A stretch of 12,600 bases of DNA from the NCBI GenBank assembly GCA_946886185.1, contig CAMPIC010000029.1:1-12600 (forward strand), in the 5' to 3' direction. Within the stretch, counting starts at the first letter, position 1. Every line of letters begins with the position of its first letter. The translations under genes were made by a program, and so were the position numbers. The DNA comes from an uncultured bacterium (GTDB lineage: Bacteria > Eisenbacteria > RBG-16-71-46 > CAIMUX01). The notes under the pieces are model-generated. The model searched no databases. It saw nothing but the letters and a program-made list of their open reading frames with translations, and was not told the DNA's origin. Shown piece after piece: positions 1,879 to 12,371 of this stretch.

Positions 1879-3501
1879 TCACTCGGCGCGCCGAACGGGG
1901 CGGAAGCCGATGAAGACTTTCATGCTATCACCCAACCAACCCGATGGTGGGCAGACATCCCGATAAGAACATCGTAAGAACTCGGGCACCAAGTCCGCGA
2001 ACGAGCCACCGCGGACCACGCGACGGCTTCCCGATGCCGGCCCCCGAGGGTTGGTGCCAGAGCCGTTCTGGTAGTAGTCGCGATCGTACCAATCCTGACA
2101 CCACTCCGAGACGTTGCCGATCATGTGCAGGCAACCGTACGGCGAAGCACCGATCCAATAGGCCGGATCGTCGACTGGAACCGTGGACCGTACACAGCTC
2201 CAGCCGTTGGTGTGTGCACAGTCGTAGTTGTTTCCCCACGAGTACTCTCGCTCGTCCGTCGTTCCTCGTGCGGCCTTCTCCCACTCTGCTTCTGTCGGAA
2301 GCCGATAGCCCGAGGCGTTGAAATCGCAGGTCCAAGTTTCGACATCGTAGCAAGGAGCGAGTCCGTCCGCGGCGCTCAGCCAGTTGCAGAATGCAGCGGC
2401 GCCAAACCAGGACACGCCGACAACCGGATGATCCTCCCATCCTGGCTCCACTCCGAACGAGCCGTTATCGAAAGTGATGCGGCATTCGTTCGGCGGAATG
2501 ACCTTCGGCAAGGTCGCGGCATCCATGTCCAGGTAGAGCGCCTCCCCGCCGGGCCGATGGACCGATCCATAGGGAGAGCCCGGAACGACTTCGATCTCGC
2601 CTTGTTGAAGAGCCCATCGCAGCGCTTCGGCGCATCGAGCGTTCGACACCTCGAAGGTGCCGATCCAGAAGGCGGAGATCGATGGGCGCCGCTCCGGCCG
2701 CTCGTCATCGTATCCTTCGCCGGGATCGCTCCCCATGACGAACGGGCCGGCAGCAACCAACACCATCGCCTCGGATGAGATGGGGAAGACAACCACTTGT
2801 CGCGACGACGTCGCGGTCGCTCCCTCCTGATCACGCACCTCGAGTCGGATCGAATAGCTGCCGGGGACCTCGTAGTCGTGCGCCGCCATCAGTGAAGCTT
2901 GGAACTCCGTGTCCCAGGCGCCGTCGCCATCGAAATCCCAGCGAGCCTCCAGCGCGGAGGCGTCGTCCTGTGCATCGCTGCTCCCCGATGCATCCAGCTC
3001 GAAGACCGTGTTGAGATCTCCCATCGACGGATTCACCTCGAACGCAGCGGTAGGCGGATCGTTCTCCGTGACCTCGATGGCACGCGTGACCGACGCAGTC
3101 AGACCACCTGCGTCGCGCACTTCGAGACGGATCCGCTTGGTGCCGGATGTCGTGTATGCGTGACCGGCAGTTTTCTCCGTAGAGAACCCAGTGTCCCACG
3201 TGCCGTCATCTTCCCAATCCCAGCGGACTTCGAGCGCAGCCAGATCCTGGTCATCGGTGCTGCCGGATGCGTCGACCAGAATGGCGACATTCGCAGCCAC
3301 AGTCTCAGTCGCCACCACGAATGAAGCGACTGGCGCCGCGTTTTCATCGTTGGGTGGCGGAGTGGGTGAGTCGTCATCCGCACACCCCAGAGCTGCTAAG
3401 AGGAGAACCGCGGCGACGGTGATGTTGAAGTGACGCACAGAGGGGGAAAACCAGCGGACCAACTGACGGGACGATGTCCCCGTGGCAGTTGCGGCAGGCA
3501 T
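1879..3501 (-). CDS. Lipoprotein with two PKD domains and a C-terminal FGE-sulfatase-like domain
   Basis: 540 residues. The signal peptide ends in L-L-A-A-L-G-C (Cys40), followed by an acidic/proline linker, so it is a predicted surface or periplasmic lipoprotein. Two PKD-type Ig-like repeats follow at ~56-145 and ~149-239, sharing A-L-E-x-R-W-D-x-x-x-D-G-x-W-D-T and the closing I-R-L-E-V-R-D. Residues ~246-537 form an FGE-sulfatase/SUMF1-like domain: M-V-x-V-x-A-G-P-F-V-M-G-S, R-L-P-T-E-A-E-W-E-K-A-A-R-G (400-413), N-V-S-E-W (463-467), R-G-G-S-F (497-501) and terminal G-F-R. The active-site cysteine pair that formylglycine-generating enzymes carry after G-G-S appears absent (Asp503 and Phe508 by my alignment), so formylglycine formation is unlikely; a binding or structural role is more plausible. 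The ATG start at 3499-3501 has an excellent AGGAGG five bases upstream and its own extended -10 promoter. The start of this gene is paralogous to the leader in front of the helicase at 8365. Confidence 0.92.
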   Translation of the reverse strand: MPAATATGTSSRQLVRWFSPSVRHFNITVAAVLLLAALGCADDDSPTPPPNDENAAPVASFVVATETVAANVAILVDASGSTDDQDLAALEVRWDWEDDGTWDTGFSTEKTAGHAYTTSGTKRIRLEVRDAGGLTASVTRAIEVTENDPPTAAFEVNPSMGDLNTVFELDASGSSDAQDDASALEARWDFDGDGAWDTEFQASLMAAHDYEVPGSYSIRLEVRDQEGATATSSRQVVVFPISSEAMVLVAAGPFVMGSDPGEGYDDERPERRPSISAFWIGTFEVSNARCAEALRWALQQGEIEVVPGSPYGSVHRPGGEALYLDMDAATLPKVIPPNECRITFDNGSFGVEPGWEDHPVVGVSWFGAAAFCNWLSAADGLAPCYDVETWTCDFNASGYRLPTEAEWEKAARGTTDEREYSWGNNYDCAHTNGWSCVRSTVPVDDPAYWIGASPYGCLHMIGNVSEWCQDWYDRDYYQNGSGTNPRGPASGSRRVVRGGSFADLVPEFLRCSYRDVCPPSGWLGDSMKVFIGFRPVRRAE

Positions 3502-3565
3502 GGCGACCTCCTGACCTCACCCCCCGGCTGTCGGCGAGACCACGAGCTCAGAATATAACACAGCT
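3502..3565 (-). promoter_or_regulatory. Extended -10 promoter, leader and strong Shine-Dalgarno of the PKD/FGE gene
   Basis: On the minus strand TGT-TATATT forms an extended -10 (TATATT at 3552-3557). It is followed by GAGCTCGT, a GC-rich leader and AGGAGG (3507-3512) five bases before the ATG. No good -35 is visible (GTCAAA at 17 bp is a poor match). The element is conserved at 8366-8430. Confidence 0.6.
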
Positions 3566-3632
3566 CGAATGAGGTTTGACTGGATCCAATCGCAGGTGCG
3601 TTCGAGGCTCCGCAGAATCGTGCCAGTCGTCC

Positions 3633-4889
3633 TCATGGTTCGAGATCGTAGATTTCGAGCTCTCCGGCGCCTCCGTATGGGCCCGCGCCCGTGAAGACAG
3701 CGAGACGGCGGCCGTCATGGGACATTCGAGCACAACTGCGTCTCGTTCCGGCAACGCCTCGGGTGAGCTGAGAGTAACTCCCGTCCTCCACATCGAGCTT
3801 CCATACTTCGTCATGGCCGCTTCGATTCGAAATGAACACGACGGATCGACCATCCACGGTCCAGGAAGGATTTCGATCGTCCGCCCATCCCGTGCCGGAG
3901 ATGCGTTCACAAACTCCAGTGGCCGGGGAAACCAAATACAGGTAGCTGCTGAGCTGTCCGACGGGAACTCCTTCATACACGATCAGGTCGTCCGAGGACC
4001 GAGCAGAGGGATGATACTTGCGATGAGACGGGTCACTCGTAACTGGACTGGACGATCCGCCGGAAGCCGGGGCTCGCGAAATCTCCGGGATGTTGGGCGC
4101 GTTGTAAGTTCCCCGGCAGAAATAGATCCATTCACTTGCTCCCCAAGTTGGGTCGAAATCGACGCGACCCTGCGAAAGAGGTCTGATCGACCTGTCGGCG
4201 ACACCGATCGCATGAACTCGGTATTCTATTCTGCCGGAGGAACGGGTGGGCGTGTGGGTCGTGGCGATGAACGTCCCGTCTTAGCTCCATGCCGCACCGT
4301 GATAGTTTCGCCTCCCCCAGATGCTGGACAGCCGCTCGATCGTAAGCGTTCGCAAGTCGAGCACGATAAGATGGCGCGAATCCAGATTCGACGCATCGAT
4401 ATAAGCAATCGCATCGTCAGTGGGTGACCAATCGAAGTTCCCGTCCACGGTGAGCGGACGAGTGAACACTGGCTGCAAGACGGCTCCTGGCATCGTGATC
4501 ACGGGCTCGGATTGTGTCAGTACCCGTCCCGATGCACCAATTGCGCGGACTTGGAACCAGACAATTCGTCCATCCGGCAGGCCCGATACAGTGAGCGAGT
4601 CGGTACCGGAACGATTTGACTTGTGAACGGCGACCCAGCTTCCGTCCGAGCCACTCCATGATCGGACCACGACCACTCCGGCAATCGGAGGGCCGTCGGG
4701 GTACGGATGTCCGTCCCAATATCCGCCCGAGGTGGAGGTGAACCAGCGGAGAGTCACCTCTCCTGACGCTGCCTCGCTGTCGATCGTGGCCACTCCGCGC
4801 CAGGGCTCAGGTTCAGGTTCGAGGAGCCCGCACCCGATCAGCAGAACGGCCGCGCTCGCGACCAGCAGTATCGTACGCATTGTCGACAT
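3633..4889 (-). pseudogene. Fibronectin-III-like / TolB-type propeller lipoprotein interrupted by an in-frame TAA
   Basis: An ATG at 4887-4889 opens a lipoprotein (signal ending L-L-I-G-C, Cys20). A fibronectin-III-like region follows (about residues 33-135), then propeller blades. At 4281-4283 a TAA stops it after 202 residues. The very same frame then continues for 215 more codons to TGA at 3633-3635, with no other stop or frameshift. The stop falls inside the blade signature: A-W-S-[stop]-D-G-T-F-I-A, where TolB/PD40 repeats have W-S-x-D-G-x-x-I-A. Other blade starts are F-D-W-S-P-T-D-D (before the stop) and F-D-P-T-W, Y-H-P-S-A-R, N-P-S-W-T-V-D-G-R and M-S-H-D-G-R-R (after it), about six in all, so the intact product would be a 418-residue six-bladed propeller lipoprotein. 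A GAGAGAAG-like ribosome site precedes the ATG; the gene starts 45 bp after the small lipoprotein gene and may share its transcript. A fresh nonsense mutation or a base error is likelier than readthrough. The alternative is a functional 202-residue truncated product. Confidence 0.85.
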
Positions 4890-6441: not shown

Positions 6442-8154
6442 TTACTCGCGCCGGACGGAAGTCTTCTTGCCTTTGATCGTCGCTCCGCGCAGCGCCCGCA
6501 ATACATTGGGGGCGACGTCCTCCGCGACCTCGACGATCGAATGGCGCTCGGCGATCTCGATAGTCCCTATAACGCGGCCGGCTACTCCCGCCTCGCCGGT
6601 GATTGCGCCGACCAGATCTCCGGCCCGGACACCGGAGCTGCGTCCCACGCCGATGTGGAGGCGGACCATGTGGGGTGGTTCATTACCCCCGCGGTACTCC
6701 TTTCCTCCGCTGCGTTTCTTTGGGGTGTGGGGCTTCTCGAGTGTGCGGCGCTTCGCCTGGCGCTCGTGCGTTGGTCCTTCCTCGTGCGCCCGCGGCACTT
6801 GAGTGTGTTCCGTTTCCCCCAATGACCTCCCATCCGCTAGATGCGCAAGTTTCACGGCAGCGAGGGCGATCTCCATCACGTCGTGCTCTGCGGCAAGCGA
6901 TTCTACCACCACGCGATACTGGTCCAGGTTTCCCTCCGAAAGGGCCGCCTGCAGGGATCCGCGCGTCAGCTCGAGGCGCTTCGCCTGGAGATCGGCCACG
7001 GTCGGCAATGCAGCCATCGCAATCTTCTGCCTCGTGTGCTGTTCGATGTTACGAAGCAGCCGATGCTCACGTGGTTCAGCCAGGGTGATGGCGACGCCTT
7101 CTCGACCGGCTCTGCCGACCCGGCCAATACGGTGCACGTAGGATTCCGATGCAGAGGGAACGTTGTAATTGAACACGTGAGAAAGGTGCTCGATGTCGAT
7201 GCCGCGGGCGGCCACGTCGGTAGCGACCACCAAGTCGGCCGCGCCCCCGCGAATCTTCTTCATGACGCGAGCACGTTCGTCCTGTGGCATTCCTCCGTGC
7301 AGCGCCTGGACGCGGTAGCCTCTACCGGCAAGCTTCTCCGTGAGCTCGTCCACCTCGAGGCGCGTCCGACAGAAGATGAAAGCGGAGGTCGGACTCTCTA
7401 GGTCAAGCACAAGCCCGAGCGCCGTGAGCTTATTCGCGTGGTTGACGATGTAGGCGGTCTGACGTACCCGCGGTCCTCCTTTGCTCGCCGTCAACTTCTC
7501 ACGCGCGACTTTGATATCGACAGCATCTTTGAGGTGACGTCGGGCAATCGCGAGAATGCGAGGCGGCAACGTCACCGAGAAAAGCATCGTCTGCCGTTGC
7601 TCGGGCGTCGCCGCGACGATGGCTTCGATGTCCTCCGCGAATCCCATGTCGAGCATCTCGTCGGCTTCGTCCAGCACGAGAATCGATACCGCATCGAGCC
7701 GTAGAGTCCCCCGCCGGATGTGATCGAGCGCTCTGCCCGGCGTGGCGACGACGACATCGACTCCTCGCTCGAGCACGCGGAGCTGCTGCCCGAAGCTCTG
7801 CCCGCCATAGATTGGGAGCACGCTCGTGCCAAACGGTCGGCCGTATCGGTGCACTGCCTCGGCGACCTGCATTGCCAATTCGCGCGTCGGCACCAGGACC
7901 AGCGCCGAGGGACGACTGCGCTGCCGCTCGAGGGCATGGAGACGTTGGAGTAGCGGCAACGCGAATGCCGCCGTTTTCCCGGTCCCGGCCGCCGCCTGCC
8001 CAATCAGGTCACGCCCCGCGAGCAGGTGCGGAATGGCTTGACGCTGGATCGGTGTGGGTTCCTCGTATCCGAGCGTCGAGAGCGCATGCACCAATCGGGC
8101 ATCGAGGCCCAGATCTTCGAAATTTTCCACTTCTGGGTCAATTGGCTGGGCCAT
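6442..8154 (-). CDS. deaD: DEAD-box ATP-dependent RNA helicase, DeaD/CsdA type
   Basis: 570 residues from the ATG at 8152-8154. All the core motifs are in order: Q motif F12 and G-Y-E-E-P-T-P-I-Q (29-37), Walker A A-A-A-G-T-G-K-T (54-61), P-T-R-E-L-A (89-94), T-P-G-R (138-141), D-E-A-D (162-165), motif III S-V-T (193-195), A-T-D-V-A-A-R-G-I-D (311-320) and H-R-I-G-R-V-G-R (341-348). Residues ~496-570 form a DbpA-type RNA-binding domain after a basic linker. The family remodels RNA in ribosome assembly, mRNA turnover and cold adaptation. Two core motifs deviate: S-V-T for S-A-T and R-V-G-R for R-T-G-R. The ATG has GGAG five bases upstream and begins one base after the TGA of the short leader frame at 8156, allowing translational coupling. 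A longer frame back to a GTG at 8274 exists, but its extra 40 residues are the lipoprotein signal remnant, so I reject it as the start. Confidence 0.95.
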   Translation of the reverse strand: MAQPIDPEVENFEDLGLDARLVHALSTLGYEEPTPIQRQAIPHLLAGRDLIGQAAAGTGKTAAFALPLLQRLHALERQRSRPSALVLVPTRELAMQVAEAVHRYGRPFGTSVLPIYGGQSFGQQLRVLERGVDVVVATPGRALDHIRRGTLRLDAVSILVLDEADEMLDMGFAEDIEAIVAATPEQRQTMLFSVTLPPRILAIARRHLKDAVDIKVAREKLTASKGGPRVRQTAYIVNHANKLTALGLVLDLESPTSAFIFCRTRLEVDELTEKLAGRGYRVQALHGGMPQDERARVMKKIRGGAADLVVATDVAARGIDIEHLSHVFNYNVPSASESYVHRIGRVGRAGREGVAITLAEPREHRLLRNIEQHTRQKIAMAALPTVADLQAKRLELTRGSLQAALSEGNLDQYRVVVESLAAEHDVMEIALAAVKLAHLADGRSLGETEHTQVPRAHEEGPTHERQAKRRTLEKPHTPKKRSGGKEYRGGNEPPHMVRLHIGVGRSSGVRAGDLVGAITGEAGVAGRVIGTIEIAERHSIVEVAEDVAPNVLRALRGATIKGKKTSVRRE

Positions 8155-8155
8155 G

Positions 8156-8365
8156 TCATCTCCAGTGGGTTGGGCGCAACCCGGTCGATCCGGAGGCGCT
8201 GCGTTTCCGGAGTCGGGTGGGGGATCGGTCGATTGGTCGGCGGCGCACCCGATGGTCGAGGCAAGGAGAACCACGGCGGACGAGAACTCTGAAGCGAGAT
8301 ACGGAACAGCATCCAGGGTGGACAGGGTGTCGTGATGGCGTCCCGGCGACAGGTGCGATTGGCAT
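8156..8365 (-). pseudogene. Truncated, frameshifted N-terminus of a PKD/FGE-lipoprotein paralogue, now a leader ORF for the helicase
   Basis: The ATG at 8363-8365 has AGGAGG five bases upstream and starts M-P-I-A-P-V-A-G-T-P-S-R, like M-P-A-A-T-A-T-G-T-S-S-R at 3501. Similarity continues to S-V-S-R-F (versus S-V-R-H-F, residue 25 in both). One extra base near 8290 then shifts the frame. In the shifted frame the signal continues A-V-V-L-L-A-S-T-I-G-C and CAADQSTDPPPDSGNAAP, matching CADDDSPTPPPNDENAAP. From ATG to the lipobox Cys codon the two copies measure 121 and 120 bases. Similarity ends at N-A-A-P (about 8194), where the PKD domain starts in the intact gene. As it stands the ATG frame encodes a 69-residue peptide ending in TGA at 8156-8158, one base before the helicase ATG. 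Confidence 0.8.
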
Positions 8366-8430
8366 GGCGACCTCCTGGTCCGCCGCTCGGCAACGTCAGC
8401 GAGACGACGAGCTCACAGAGTATCACATTC
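8366..8430 (-). promoter_or_regulatory. Promoter and leader copied from the PKD/FGE lipoprotein type, in front of the helicase
   Basis: On the minus strand TGT-GATACT gives an extended -10 (8419-8424). It is followed by GAGCTCGT, a GC-rich leader and CAGGAGGTCGCC before the ATG (AGGAGG at 8371-8376). The same order, nearly the same spacing (one base difference) and identical Shine-Dalgarno block occur at 3502-3565. No good -35 is visible. Confidence 0.55.
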
Positions 8431-8470
8431 GGTCACCGCGCTCGGTTCTTCCACGGACCTCATGTCGTAG

Positions 8471-9187
8471 TCAGATCGACCAGGAACGCGCGCGTCGCTC
8501 TCTCACATAGCGATGATAGGAGTCGCGTACGAAGTAGAAGAATACGAGGTAGAACAACCCGACGATGTACCCCAAGCGATCGTAGGCCTCCACGAAGGTA
8601 AGCCCCAGGAGAAAGAGAACGCCGCAGGACAAAACTTGGTATCCGAATCCATAGTTGGCTTTCCATGTCGACCAAAACGTACGCCTGGTATCCAGACTGA
8701 TGGCTCCGGCCACTACGAAGGTGTTGATCACGAAGAAGGTGACCGGGACCGCGAGCGTTGCCCCGGGATGGTGAAGGAGCGAATCCATGTTGGTGTGGAC
8801 GACAGGCATTCCCAGGAGGCGTGCGACCTCGAAACACACTGCGAGCGCGATGGTCGTTTGGGCGGCGTTGAAAGAAGCCTTCAGCGGTTTCCGCTGGTGA
8901 ACGAGCAGATCCGACGCGCCGACCGTCAGAGCGCCAATCGCAAGAACATACGGGCGAGGAAGAACGAACAGCATCGCGAGGTTGATCGCCAATGCAGTGC
9001 TGACCATTCCCTTGCCGGTAGGAGTCTCCAGCCAGAAACATTCTGCGGCCAGGCTCAGGACGACCCAAAATGCCAGCAGATTCAAGGAAACCGGCTGGAC
9101 TGGAGCGCCGCCGGTCCAAGCATGGGCCAGGATCAGGGCCGCACCGGCCATGACAGTCCCGACGAAGAGGGCGAGGCCTTTTCGCAT
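8471..9187 (-). CDS. Polytopic integral membrane protein, function unknown
   Basis: About 238 residues from the ATG at 9185-9187, with roughly six hydrophobic helices and short loops. Examples are an N-terminal helix A-L-F-V-G-T-V-M-A-G-A-A-L-I-L-A, a middle pair A-L-A-I-N-L-A-M-L-F-V-L-P and Y-V-L-A-I-G-A-L-T-V-G-A, and a C-terminal V-G-L-F-Y-L-V-F-F-Y-F-V. The loop H-Q-R-K-P-L-K-A-S-F-N-A-A-Q-T-T lies between helices. From memory this resembles membrane sensor regions that some bacteria fuse to HD-GYP domains, but here no output domain follows, so that is only a suggestion. The start is uncertain: an in-frame GTG at 9218-9220, eight bases past the upstream stop, is the main alternative, and a longer frame to 9322 would overlap the upstream gene. 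No strong ribosome site marks any of them. A second copy of its 3' end occurs at 6291-6383. Confidence 0.78.
   Translation of the reverse strand: MRKGLALFVGTVMAGAALILAHAWTGGAPVQPVSLNLLAFWVVLSLAAECFWLETPTGKGMVSTALAINLAMLFVLPRPYVLAIGALTVGASDLLVHQRKPLKASFNAAQTTIALAVCFEVARLLGMPVVHTNMDSLLHHPGATLAVPVTFFVINTFVVAGAISLDTRRTFWSTWKANYGFGYQVLSCGVLFLLGLTFVEAYDRLGYIVGLFYLVFFYFVRDSYHRYVRERRARSWSI
8494..8583. repeat. Direct repeat copy 2 (partner at 6291-6380)
   Basis: This is the 3' coding end of the membrane protein gene and aligns without gaps to 6291-6380 at about 77% identity. Confidence 0.75.
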
Positions 9188-9228
9188 GCCGGATTTCGAC
9201 TCGTCTCGAAGGTGGTTCACGGGTTGAG

Positions 9229-10230
9229 CTACCAGCCGGCCCGTCCGGGGCGATACACGCTGAAGTGCATCAGATCGACTCTGATCCTGTCTCGATCGAA
9301 CGTGCCGTACTGGTTTTCCCATACGTTGGGCCCGTCGTGAAGCCAGAATACGGTCCAGTCTTCATACGGAGCGTAGTTCAGACCTTTCAAGTCGACTTCG
9401 AGGCGTACTGGAAGTTGGAACTCGATCCCGTGCGGTTCCAGCCAGCATGTGACGTATCCATCGCCGGGGTCGCGCACGGTGATGTATGTGTCCTGTGCGA
9501 GCGCGTTCGCGGGAAGACGTAGCTTGAAGCGGCCGTACTCGACGTCGCCACCTCGGGAAGCTTCGATCCAGGCGGTTTTGAATCCGGGACCGCTCAACCA
9601 TTCAAGGAATTGAATGCCGGTGGAATCAGCGCTCCCCACCACGAACTCCCCCAGAACCGAAGAGCTGGCTTCGATCTTGGCGGCTGATGCGGAGGACGGC
9701 ATCATGAGCCATCCGCTCGATTCGTGACGAAAGAACGAAAGACCATCGAACCCGACGCGGGTCGTTTTGTCGTCCAGATGATCGATGCTGATTTTGACTG
9801 GTTTCGCGAGCACGACAGCGCTCGGCTCTACGGAGAACGACACGGACTGCCCTTCGAAACGGGTAAGAGTGAAGGTCGTCGTCGACGACAGAGTGCCGCT
9901 CTCGAAACGAACACGAATCTCGCCCAGACGAAGTTCGCCTCCCCCCGCGGAAATTTCCCGCGTCACCAGGGTCGCCCCGCTCGCTATCGGGCTGGACGAT
10001 TGCGACTGCTGCAAGAACGTCACCGAGGCGACGTTTCCTGGGGGTGCCGCAACCGGGATCGAGTCATCCTCGGTCGAGCACCCGGCGATCGAGAGTCCCA
10101 CCCATGCCAGCACGCCGCACAGAAAAAGCCTGCTGATGCCTCCGTCCGCTCTAAGGTTCTTCCCGACCTCGGCGAATGGCCGCTGCGATCGGCGCAACGC
10201 GCCGTCATTCCATCTTGGTCCAGGCGACAT
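9229..10230 (-). CDS. Lipoprotein with two ZU5-like halves
   Basis: 333 residues. A long basic N-terminal extension precedes the hydrophobic segment L-F-L-C-G-V-L-A-W-V-G-L-S-I-A-G-C, with a good lipobox (Cys51), so it is a predicted lipoprotein. The mature part appears to hold two related beta-sandwich units. The first is about residues 92-190: G-G-G-E-L-R-L-G-E-I-R-V-R-F-E-S-G-T-L then T-F-T-L-T-R. The second is about 227-320: G-G-D-V-E-Y-G-R-F-K-L-R-L-P-A-N-A-L then T-Y-I-T-V-R. The order 'G-G, strand, x-x-P/S-x-x-A/T-L, threonine-rich strand' is that of ZU5-type domains, usually structural or interaction modules; no enzyme motif is seen. The ATG at 10228-10230 has only a weak GGGTAA upstream, and the long pre-signal extension suggests the true start could lie further in. 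It ends 41 bp before the chosen start of the membrane protein gene, so the two are probably co-transcribed. Confidence 0.75.
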   Translation of the reverse strand: MSPGPRWNDGALRRSQRPFAEVGKNLRADGGISRLFLCGVLAWVGLSIAGCSTEDDSIPVAAPPGNVASVTFLQQSQSSSPIASGATLVTREISAGGGELRLGEIRVRFESGTLSSTTTFTLTRFEGQSVSFSVEPSAVVLAKPVKISIDHLDDKTTRVGFDGLSFFRHESSGWLMMPSSASAAKIEASSSVLGEFVVGSADSTGIQFLEWLSGPGFKTAWIEASRGGDVEYGRFKLRLPANALAQDTYITVRDPGDGYVTCWLEPHGIEFQLPVRLEVDLKGLNYAPYEDWTVFWLHDGPNVWENQYGTFDRDRIRVDLMHFSVYRPGRAGW

Positions 10231-11198: not shown

Positions 11199-12371
11199 TC
11201 AAGCGGCCAAAACCTGCTCCATCGGAAACTCGATCGAGGAGAGATACGGATAGAGCACTTCCGGCAGCCGTGAGAATCCGGGACCGAGCCGCGACTTCAC
11301 CAGATACCCCGCCACGTTCTGATCATACGCCGCTTGTTTGTCGCGCGGATCGTCCGACGTGCTGAGCACGAACACGAGGCACCGGCGCAGCTCAGGATCG
11401 CCGCGGAGCTGCCCGAGCAGCTGCAGCCCGTTCATGTTTGGCATGTTCAAATCCAGCAGGATGACTGGAGGCGGAGCATCCCCGGCACTGCAGACGGCGC
11501 GCAGCACGTTCAGTCCCTCCTCCCCGTCTCGCGCCATGGAGATCTTCGTCTCGAAAGCCCCTCGCCGAAACGCCCGCTCGATCGCCTCCCGATCGATGTC
11601 GTCGTCATCGACGATCAGCATCTGGAACGGAGACGCATCGCCTGGCCGCAGCGGACTGGCGTCGCCCCCCAACCGCGGTGAACAGCGGTCGCTCGAAGCC
11701 AGGTTCTCTTGCAGGGAATCCGCTTCGGGTTCCTGTGGCTTCTCCTCCGGAATGGTATAGAGGAACGACATCCGCCGATCCAGGTCCGCGGCGATCTCAC
11801 CCGTGGAGTGGAGCTGGATCACGATATCGACGACGCGAGGATCGAAACGCTGTCCCGCTTCGTTTCGCAGCTCGGCATACGCTCCTTCCGTGCTCAGGCG
11901 AGCGCGATGCGGTCGATCGGAAACCATCGCGTCGAGCGCGGAGACCACCGCGAGAATGCGCGCCGGCAGTGGGATCTCTTCCCACCTGAGGTGGTTGGGG
12001 AGTCCTCGACCGTCATACCGCTCGTTGAGACACTCGATGATTCCCGCCGCGCGTTCCAGAAATGGGATGCGCCGCAGTATCGCCGCGCTGATCTGCGCGT
12101 GCTGGTTCATCTGAAGCCGTTCGGATGGATACAGCGAGCGCGGACGATGCCGGATCGTGTGAAACGCGATCTTCTTCGCCAGATCCTGCAGCAGTCCCGC
12201 GTACTCGAGATTCTGTAGATCGGGATCACACATGCCCATACGCCGCCCGACGCGCACCGCGTACTTGGAGCATCGATACGCCCGGCCGTGAGTGTAAGGG
12301 TCGCCAGCATCCATCGCGCTCGCCATGACGCGAATGAATGAGGTGAGCGCATCCTTGGGAATCTCGATCAT
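11199..12371 (-). CDS. Degenerate HD-GYP domain protein with C-terminal Rcp1-like receiver domain
   Basis: 390 residues. Residues ~10-190 follow the HD-GYP fold: Y-T-H-G-R-A-Y-R, L-L-Q-D-L-A-K-K, a conserved H91, N-E-R-Y-D-G-R-G-L-P (116-125), I-P-L-P-A-R-I-L-A-V, S-D-R-P-H-R, A-G-Q-R-F-D-P. Most metal ligands of active cyclic-di-GMP phosphodiesterases are replaced: G-H-S is G-R-A, HD is Q62-D63, H-H is L115-N116, G-Y-P is G-L-P, and the V-x-D of the last helix has Ser144. A polar linker (~205-248) leads to a receiver domain (250-382) with acidic cluster D255-D258, phospho-acceptor D307 in L-L-D-L-N-M-P, S/T at 337-338 and K359. The wording V-A-G-Y-L-V-K-S is that of cyanobacterial-Rcp1-type receivers. 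The likely role is phosphorylation-controlled signalling or c-di-GMP sensing rather than hydrolysis. The ATG at 12369-12371 is the first start after an upstream stop; its ribosome site is weak. Confidence 0.88.
   Translation of the reverse strand: MIEIPKDALTSFIRVMASAMDAGDPYTHGRAYRCSKYAVRVGRRMGMCDPDLQNLEYAGLLQDLAKKIAFHTIRHRPRSLYPSERLQMNQHAQISAAILRRIPFLERAAGIIECLNERYDGRGLPNHLRWEEIPLPARILAVVSALDAMVSDRPHRARLSTEGAYAELRNEAGQRFDPRVVDIVIQLHSTGEIAADLDRRMSFLYTIPEEKPQEPEADSLQENLASSDRCSPRLGGDASPLRPGDASPFQMLIVDDDDIDREAIERAFRRGAFETKISMARDGEEGLNVLRAVCSAGDAPPPVILLDLNMPNMNGLQLLGQLRGDPELRRCLVFVLSTSDDPRDKQAAYDQNVAGYLVKSRLGPGFSRLPEVLYPYLSSIEFPMEQVLAA

Follow-up and report, generated by a model that had tools for sequence, protein, structure and literature searches.

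Joins made by deletion, together with promoter recruitment, have been documented in Escherichia coli, as far as the available portions of two sources describe them (PMC12803068, a preprint; PMC11101190). At the level of translation, coupling within gene pairs requires overlaps or very short distances, according to the available part of PMC10666635. Herein, we describe a locus that can be compared with both situations, found in a window (the whole stretch of DNA analysed, 12,600 nucleotides) from an uncultured bacterium, in which a DEAD-box RNA helicase gene is preceded by the front of a lipoprotein gene. As in the deletion-born fusions and promoter captures described in those portions (PMC12803068, PMC11101190), the start of one gene would have been brought beside another by the loss of what lay between, and expression may pass to the downstream gene. 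Unlike in deletion-born fusions, the helicase is complete and retains its own start behind an out-of-frame leader, and the arrangement ancestral to the locus is unseen. As in termination-reinitiation coupling (PMC6728339 and PMC10666635, in the excerpts available), the stop of an upstream open reading frame (ORF) adjoins the next start on the same strand. Unlike in common coupled pairs, stop and start are 1 base apart instead of in a 4- or 1-base overlap, and the leader ORF appears to lack a coding signature. A further likeness is presumably to the E. coli nlpI-yrbN-deaD locus, where the DeaD helicase likewise follows a lipoprotein gene and a small ORF; the two loci differ in that NlpI is, we assume, unrelated to PKD/FGE lipoproteins.

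The features of the locus, and of the intact gene in the same window to which it was compared, are as follows.

8395-8427, minus strand: conserved upstream block GAGCTCGT-GTCTCGC-GAC, common with 3530-3562; its -10-like stretch was recognised by eye only
8370-8376, minus strand: strong Shine-Dalgarno (AGGAGGT) in front of the leader ORF, the same as at 3506-3512
8156-8365, minus strand: leader ORF of 69 codons, lipoprotein-like in codons 1 to ~26 and out of frame in the remainder
8289, minus strand: extra base relative to the lipoprotein gene, from the alignment, its exact place alignment-dependent
8195-8288, minus strand: remnant with hydrophobic segment, lipobox and linker up to N-A-A-P, readable in the helicase frame
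8155-8194, minus strand: 40 bases that do not resemble the lipoprotein gene past N-A-A-P, containing the helicase GGAG, from the alignment and the sequence
6442-8154, minus strand: DeaD-type DEAD-box RNA helicase gene, 570 amino acids, from the ORF list and the Pfam domains DEAD, Helicase_C, DeaD_dimer and DbpA
3332-3562, minus strand: front of the intact lipoprotein gene, homologous to the leader, from the local alignment
1879-3501, minus strand: intact PKD/FGE lipoprotein gene, 540 amino acids, from the ORF list and Pfam, its front homologous to the leader

All four helicase domains exceeded their Pfam cut-offs, as expected of a DeaD-type DEAD-box enzyme. The initial annotation had described a 69-residue leader ORF whose TGA lies one base before the helicase ATG, and the ORF coordinates and the sequence agree: the stop occupies 8158-8156 and the ATG begins at 8154, as close as in a termination-reinitiation pair. 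It had also placed this ATG 40 bases past the end of similarity, which is the length of 8155-8194. The helicase has a ribosome site of its own, GGAG at 8163-8160 (minus strand). The ribosome site and ATG context of the leader ORF are the same as those of the intact lipoprotein gene at 3501, and the Cys codon of the remnant lipobox lies at 8247-8245 (minus strand).

Local alignment of the two minus-strand fronts returned a single homologous block, which pairs 8427-8195 (233 bases of the helicase copy) with 3562-3332 and has a score of 62. In the PKD/FGE lipoprotein gene it takes in the upstream region with the ribosome site and the coding sequence from the ATG to about codon 57. The null distribution, obtained from 1000 dinucleotide-preserving shuffles of the helicase side, had a mean of 10.9 and a maximum of 18, so that this pairwise comparison, proposed earlier as a check, came out clearly for homology. 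Identical aligned bases numbered 47/60 upstream of the ATG and 104/170 from the ATG onward. Each part was also scored against 2000 simple shuffles. The upstream part was significant by itself (27; shuffle maximum 16) and scored 19 with the Shine-Dalgarno removed (shuffle maximum 15), while the coding part scored 33 (shuffle maximum 21). Within the coding part, the leader remainder past the first 78 bases was significant (28; shuffle maximum 15) and those 78 bases by themselves were not (12; shuffle maximum 15). Scores on either side of the block were noise, at 5 above it (shuffle mean 6.5) and 6 past N-A-A-P (shuffle mean 7.1). The boundary had been placed at N-A-A-P, exactly where the PKD domain begins. 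Similarity does end at N-A-A-P; the Pfam PKD_4 match, however, starts at residue 54, the N of that motif, and homology thus ends four residues inside the match and not just before it.

Nine other gene fronts, those of the two plus-strand genes not among them, were scored in the same comparison. Of the nine, seven scored at most 13 against either leader; the remaining two, which overlap the leader, reached 47 and 48 when set against the lipoprotein front. Across 91 loci, searched on both strands, the best score of either leader was 25. A chance or convergent resemblance between two signal peptides, in favor of which stands the nonsignificant DNA score of the first 78 coding bases alone, is rejected as having a negligible probability, given a block score far above every shuffle, a non-coding part that is significant alone and a best score of only 25 in the 91 loci.

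The alignment contained one gap in the coding part, at base 8289 of the helicase copy, and two small ones upstream of the ATG. MAFFT agreed on the coding-part gap; harsher scoring instead distributed several small gaps. The extra base shifts reading to the helicase frame, hereafter frame +1. We compared each frame of the leader with three intact lipoprotein leaders (that of the window gene at 3501, P0122 and P0123), using 1000 shuffles for each. Residues 1-26 in frame 0 matched the window gene and P0123 (1/1000 and 4/1000 shuffles as good), and were not significant against P0122 (194/1000 shuffles as good). From residue 27 onward, frame +1 scored 84 against the window gene, 106 against P0122 and 95 against P0123, a level that 0/1000 shuffles attained in any of the three, and frames 0 and +2 were at chance level against all of them. 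In the lipobox part, 18/30 residues were common to frame +1 and P0122. The frame +1 part also matched a more distant lipoprotein (P0126, a hit at 57%; score 48; 1/1000 shuffles), with no clear match to P0127 (score 31; 53/1000 shuffles). The n-region and the hydrophobic segment with its lipobox therefore lie in different frames, with the switch near codon 26, and do not form a functional lipoprotein signal. The earlier reading, that one base inserted near 8290 broke the signal peptide, holds by both the gap at 8289 and the frame switch in the protein comparison. These results confirm the observation of a homologous, frame-broken lipoprotein front before the helicase.

Next, codon usage was scored in three segments of the leader, with a codon table built from eleven of the window's ORFs, including the lipoprotein and helicase genes. 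The 69-codon frame scored poorly and was negative in all segments (log-odds of -6.3, -3.2 and -7.8 bits), a weak test in its early part, where the first 25 codons of the intact gene also gave -1.9. The helicase frame, which is open without a stop across the whole leader up to the helicase Met, scored +3.1, +4.9 and -1.3 bits; after the break the comparison is thus +4.9 for the lipoprotein/helicase frame versus -3.2 for the 69-codon frame. Identity between the two fronts at codon positions 1, 2 and 3 was 36/57, 40/57 and 28/56, so that positions 1 and 2 were kept better than position 3 (76/114 versus 28/56; Fisher p 0.045), a marginal difference which was not significant in the post-break part alone (p 0.11). 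A protein-like lipobox in the helicase frame and poor usage of the 69-codon frame suggest that a lipoprotein gene lost its body and then its frame, and the 18/30 lipobox residues common with P0122, together with the codon usage, agree with a leader that first served a lipoprotein and was broken only afterwards. The three nearest helicases of other genomes (P0002-P0004) begin at the same Met, so that positive evidence is lacking both for selection on a leader peptide and for fusion of a lipobox to the helicase.

The initial annotation had treated the leader as a paralogous copy of the gene at 3501. The alignment upholds the common descent of the two fronts, and a recent copy is not supported. 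Among aligned columns, the helicase copy had 27/56 residues in common with the window gene, 29/54 with P0122 and 28/56 with P0123, and the three lipoprotein leaders stood at a similar distance from each other (25/55 for the window gene and P0122, 26/57 for the window gene and P0123, 25/55 for P0122 and P0123). The four leaders are therefore separated by about equal distances; over the lipobox part, P0122 comes closest to the helicase copy. The bodies of the three lipoproteins are 76-78% identical (P0122 78% and P0123 76% to that of the window gene) and their leaders only about half identical; hence the leader evolves fast, and the divergence of the helicase copy falls within that spread. By these comparisons, the helicase copy would have split from the window gene about when P0122 and P0123 did, or would descend from another member of the family, the ~55 columns being too few to order the splits.

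The copied "promoter" of the initial annotation stands on conservation only: the upstream region is conserved, and no sigma-70-like promoter consensus was found in 8100-8600 or 3400-3700. The better preservation of the upstream part than of the coding part hints at use in both copies. The 5' regions of both copies gave no RNA folding signal (z of 0.05 and 0.52), and folding around the helicase start (z -0.83) and of the whole leader (z 1.15) was no better than in shuffles. In 8355-8420 and 3491-3555 (minus strand), the ribosome site pairs with the conserved upstream block, again no better than in shuffles. Rfam had 0 matches at gathering score in the window. With random bases after the leader, a leader-frame stop would have its end at -6 to +8 relative to the start with a chance of 0.042. 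Since the leader stop lies one base from the helicase ATG, the geometry permits coupling. Both translational coupling and use of the upstream region as a promoter by the helicase are possible. The helicase would most simply be translated from its own GGAG and the ATG at 8154, possibly with help from ribosomes ending at 8156.

We searched for relatives of the locus and for further copies of the leader. Searches for the helicase in 191, 298, 148 and 384 genomes (partly overlapping sets) gave no close relative, the best match being 67% identical over 6-465 only. Searches with the lipoprotein, in sets that may share genomes with these, likewise gave no close relative: 3 of 20 genomes matched, via part of the FGE domain, and 0 of 248 in another set, where an empty answer shows nothing. 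A scan of genome contigs gave at least 80 helicase loci, at no more than 64% identity among the matches listed; 4/80 were excluded by match, orientation or edge filters and 76 were examined for their neighbourhood. A conserved lipoprotein-helicase neighbourhood was rejected: an upstream lipobox pattern occurred in 11/76 loci, and by eye only two of these (L019 and L041) had credible lipoproteins. The upstream pattern was seen in three viral contigs, where the leader scored 25, 20 and 20, like unrelated loci, and plasmids yielded no further leader copy at E 1e-5. When the leader part in the helicase frame served as a protein query, 36 candidates came back, none at E <= 10. With the terms used, nothing was found in the literature on the helicase 5' region, leader ORFs or duplication of a lipoprotein front, and on lipoproteins in Eisenbacteria only a paper that its title shows to be unrelated.

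Several other genes of the window, all on the minus strand, deserve description. The gene at 3633-4889 is of beta-propeller lipoprotein type and has an in-frame stop at codon 203, past which the frame remains open to 3633, with a PD40 repeat over the Pfam cut-off; it is the second broken envelope-type gene in the window. A probable membrane protein is encoded at 8471-9322, with a weak MASE9 match below cut-off. Its listed start overlaps a lipoprotein-like ORF (9229-10230) by 94 bases, so the true start is probably further in. The protein encoded at 11199-12371 carries an HD_5 domain and, at its C-terminal end, a response-regulator receiver.

How did a lipoprotein front come to lie before a helicase? 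It is a real relic, and an ordinary leftover of gene loss is more likely than a new mechanism. To the explanation that a second, old member of the lipoprotein family lost its body there and then its leader frame, we assign about an even chance. A PKD/FGE family member would have stood directly upstream of the helicase; a deletion running from around N-A-A-P to within some 40 bases of the helicase ATG would have removed its PKD and FGE body; and late insertion of one base would have broken the leader frame. The helicase would thereby have come to follow the old upstream region, which perhaps now transcribes it, the strong ribosome site and a frameshifted ORF of 69 codons. Loss of the lipoprotein body, as initially proposed, we infer from the protein-like lipobox and linker in frame +1 and from the codon usage after the break. 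Past N-A-A-P no similarity to a PKD/FGE body was seen, the 40 bases that follow it do not resemble the stretch following N-A-A-P in the intact gene, and the next gene is the helicase.

The chief rival to body loss is that only the front, i.e., the upstream region and ~57 codons, was duplicated or moved before the helicase in an ancestor and never had a body, a gain in one step. Such an event, which we judge unlikely, would account for the compactness of the 233-base block with noise on either side, and rearrangement-driven promoter recruitment is documented in the available part of PMC11101190; in that case, however, the lipobox and linker would have served no purpose ever since a divergence of roughly the age of that from P0122 and P0123, and their still protein-like state in frame +1 would not be expected. 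We are equally doubtful that the leader is an inert, decaying relic, with the helicase driven either by its own element or by read-through from co-directional genes upstream (8471-9322 and those preceding it). The genes upstream are on the same strand, promoter consensus and leader folding beyond shuffles are both missing, and another lipoprotein-type gene is broken at 4889-3633, all of which would fit; an upstream part better kept than the coding part, as if used in both copies, would not.

We consider it very unlikely that the extra base arose in sequencing or assembly and that the gene in truth encodes a lipoprotein signal fused in frame to the helicase. Such a fusion would agree with the stop-free helicase frame through the whole leader and with codon scores that favor this frame in the first two of three segments, but the ~13 open codons from N-A-A-P to the Met are likely by chance at 0.03 stops/codon, and the second broken gene of the window is interrupted by an in-frame stop, not by an indel. 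The nearest three helicases, from other genomes and 85% identical (P0002-P0004), begin at the same Met without an N-terminal extension, their starts having been chosen by gene callers, and the protein recorded for this stretch (P0001) likewise lacks one. An RNA helicase outside the cytoplasm is also implausible. Body loss remains our preferred origin of the leader. That the broken front has in addition been retained for regulation, with ribosomes loaded at its strong site reading the 69-codon frameshifted ORF and terminating one base short of the helicase start, so that helicase synthesis follows a former envelope-lipoprotein signal, seems to us improbable. The small case, that of leader recruitment or an inert relic, is sound.

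In conclusion, the leader-helicase locus may be a new example resembling deletion joins and promoter recruitment, with a coupled leader ORF as a possible twist. It would be an example, datable by its relatives, of a housekeeping gene gaining an upstream region and ribosome site through gene loss; the lineage is one known here from metagenomes alone. If the leader ORF does regulate the helicase, a coding remnant would have been turned into a translational control element.
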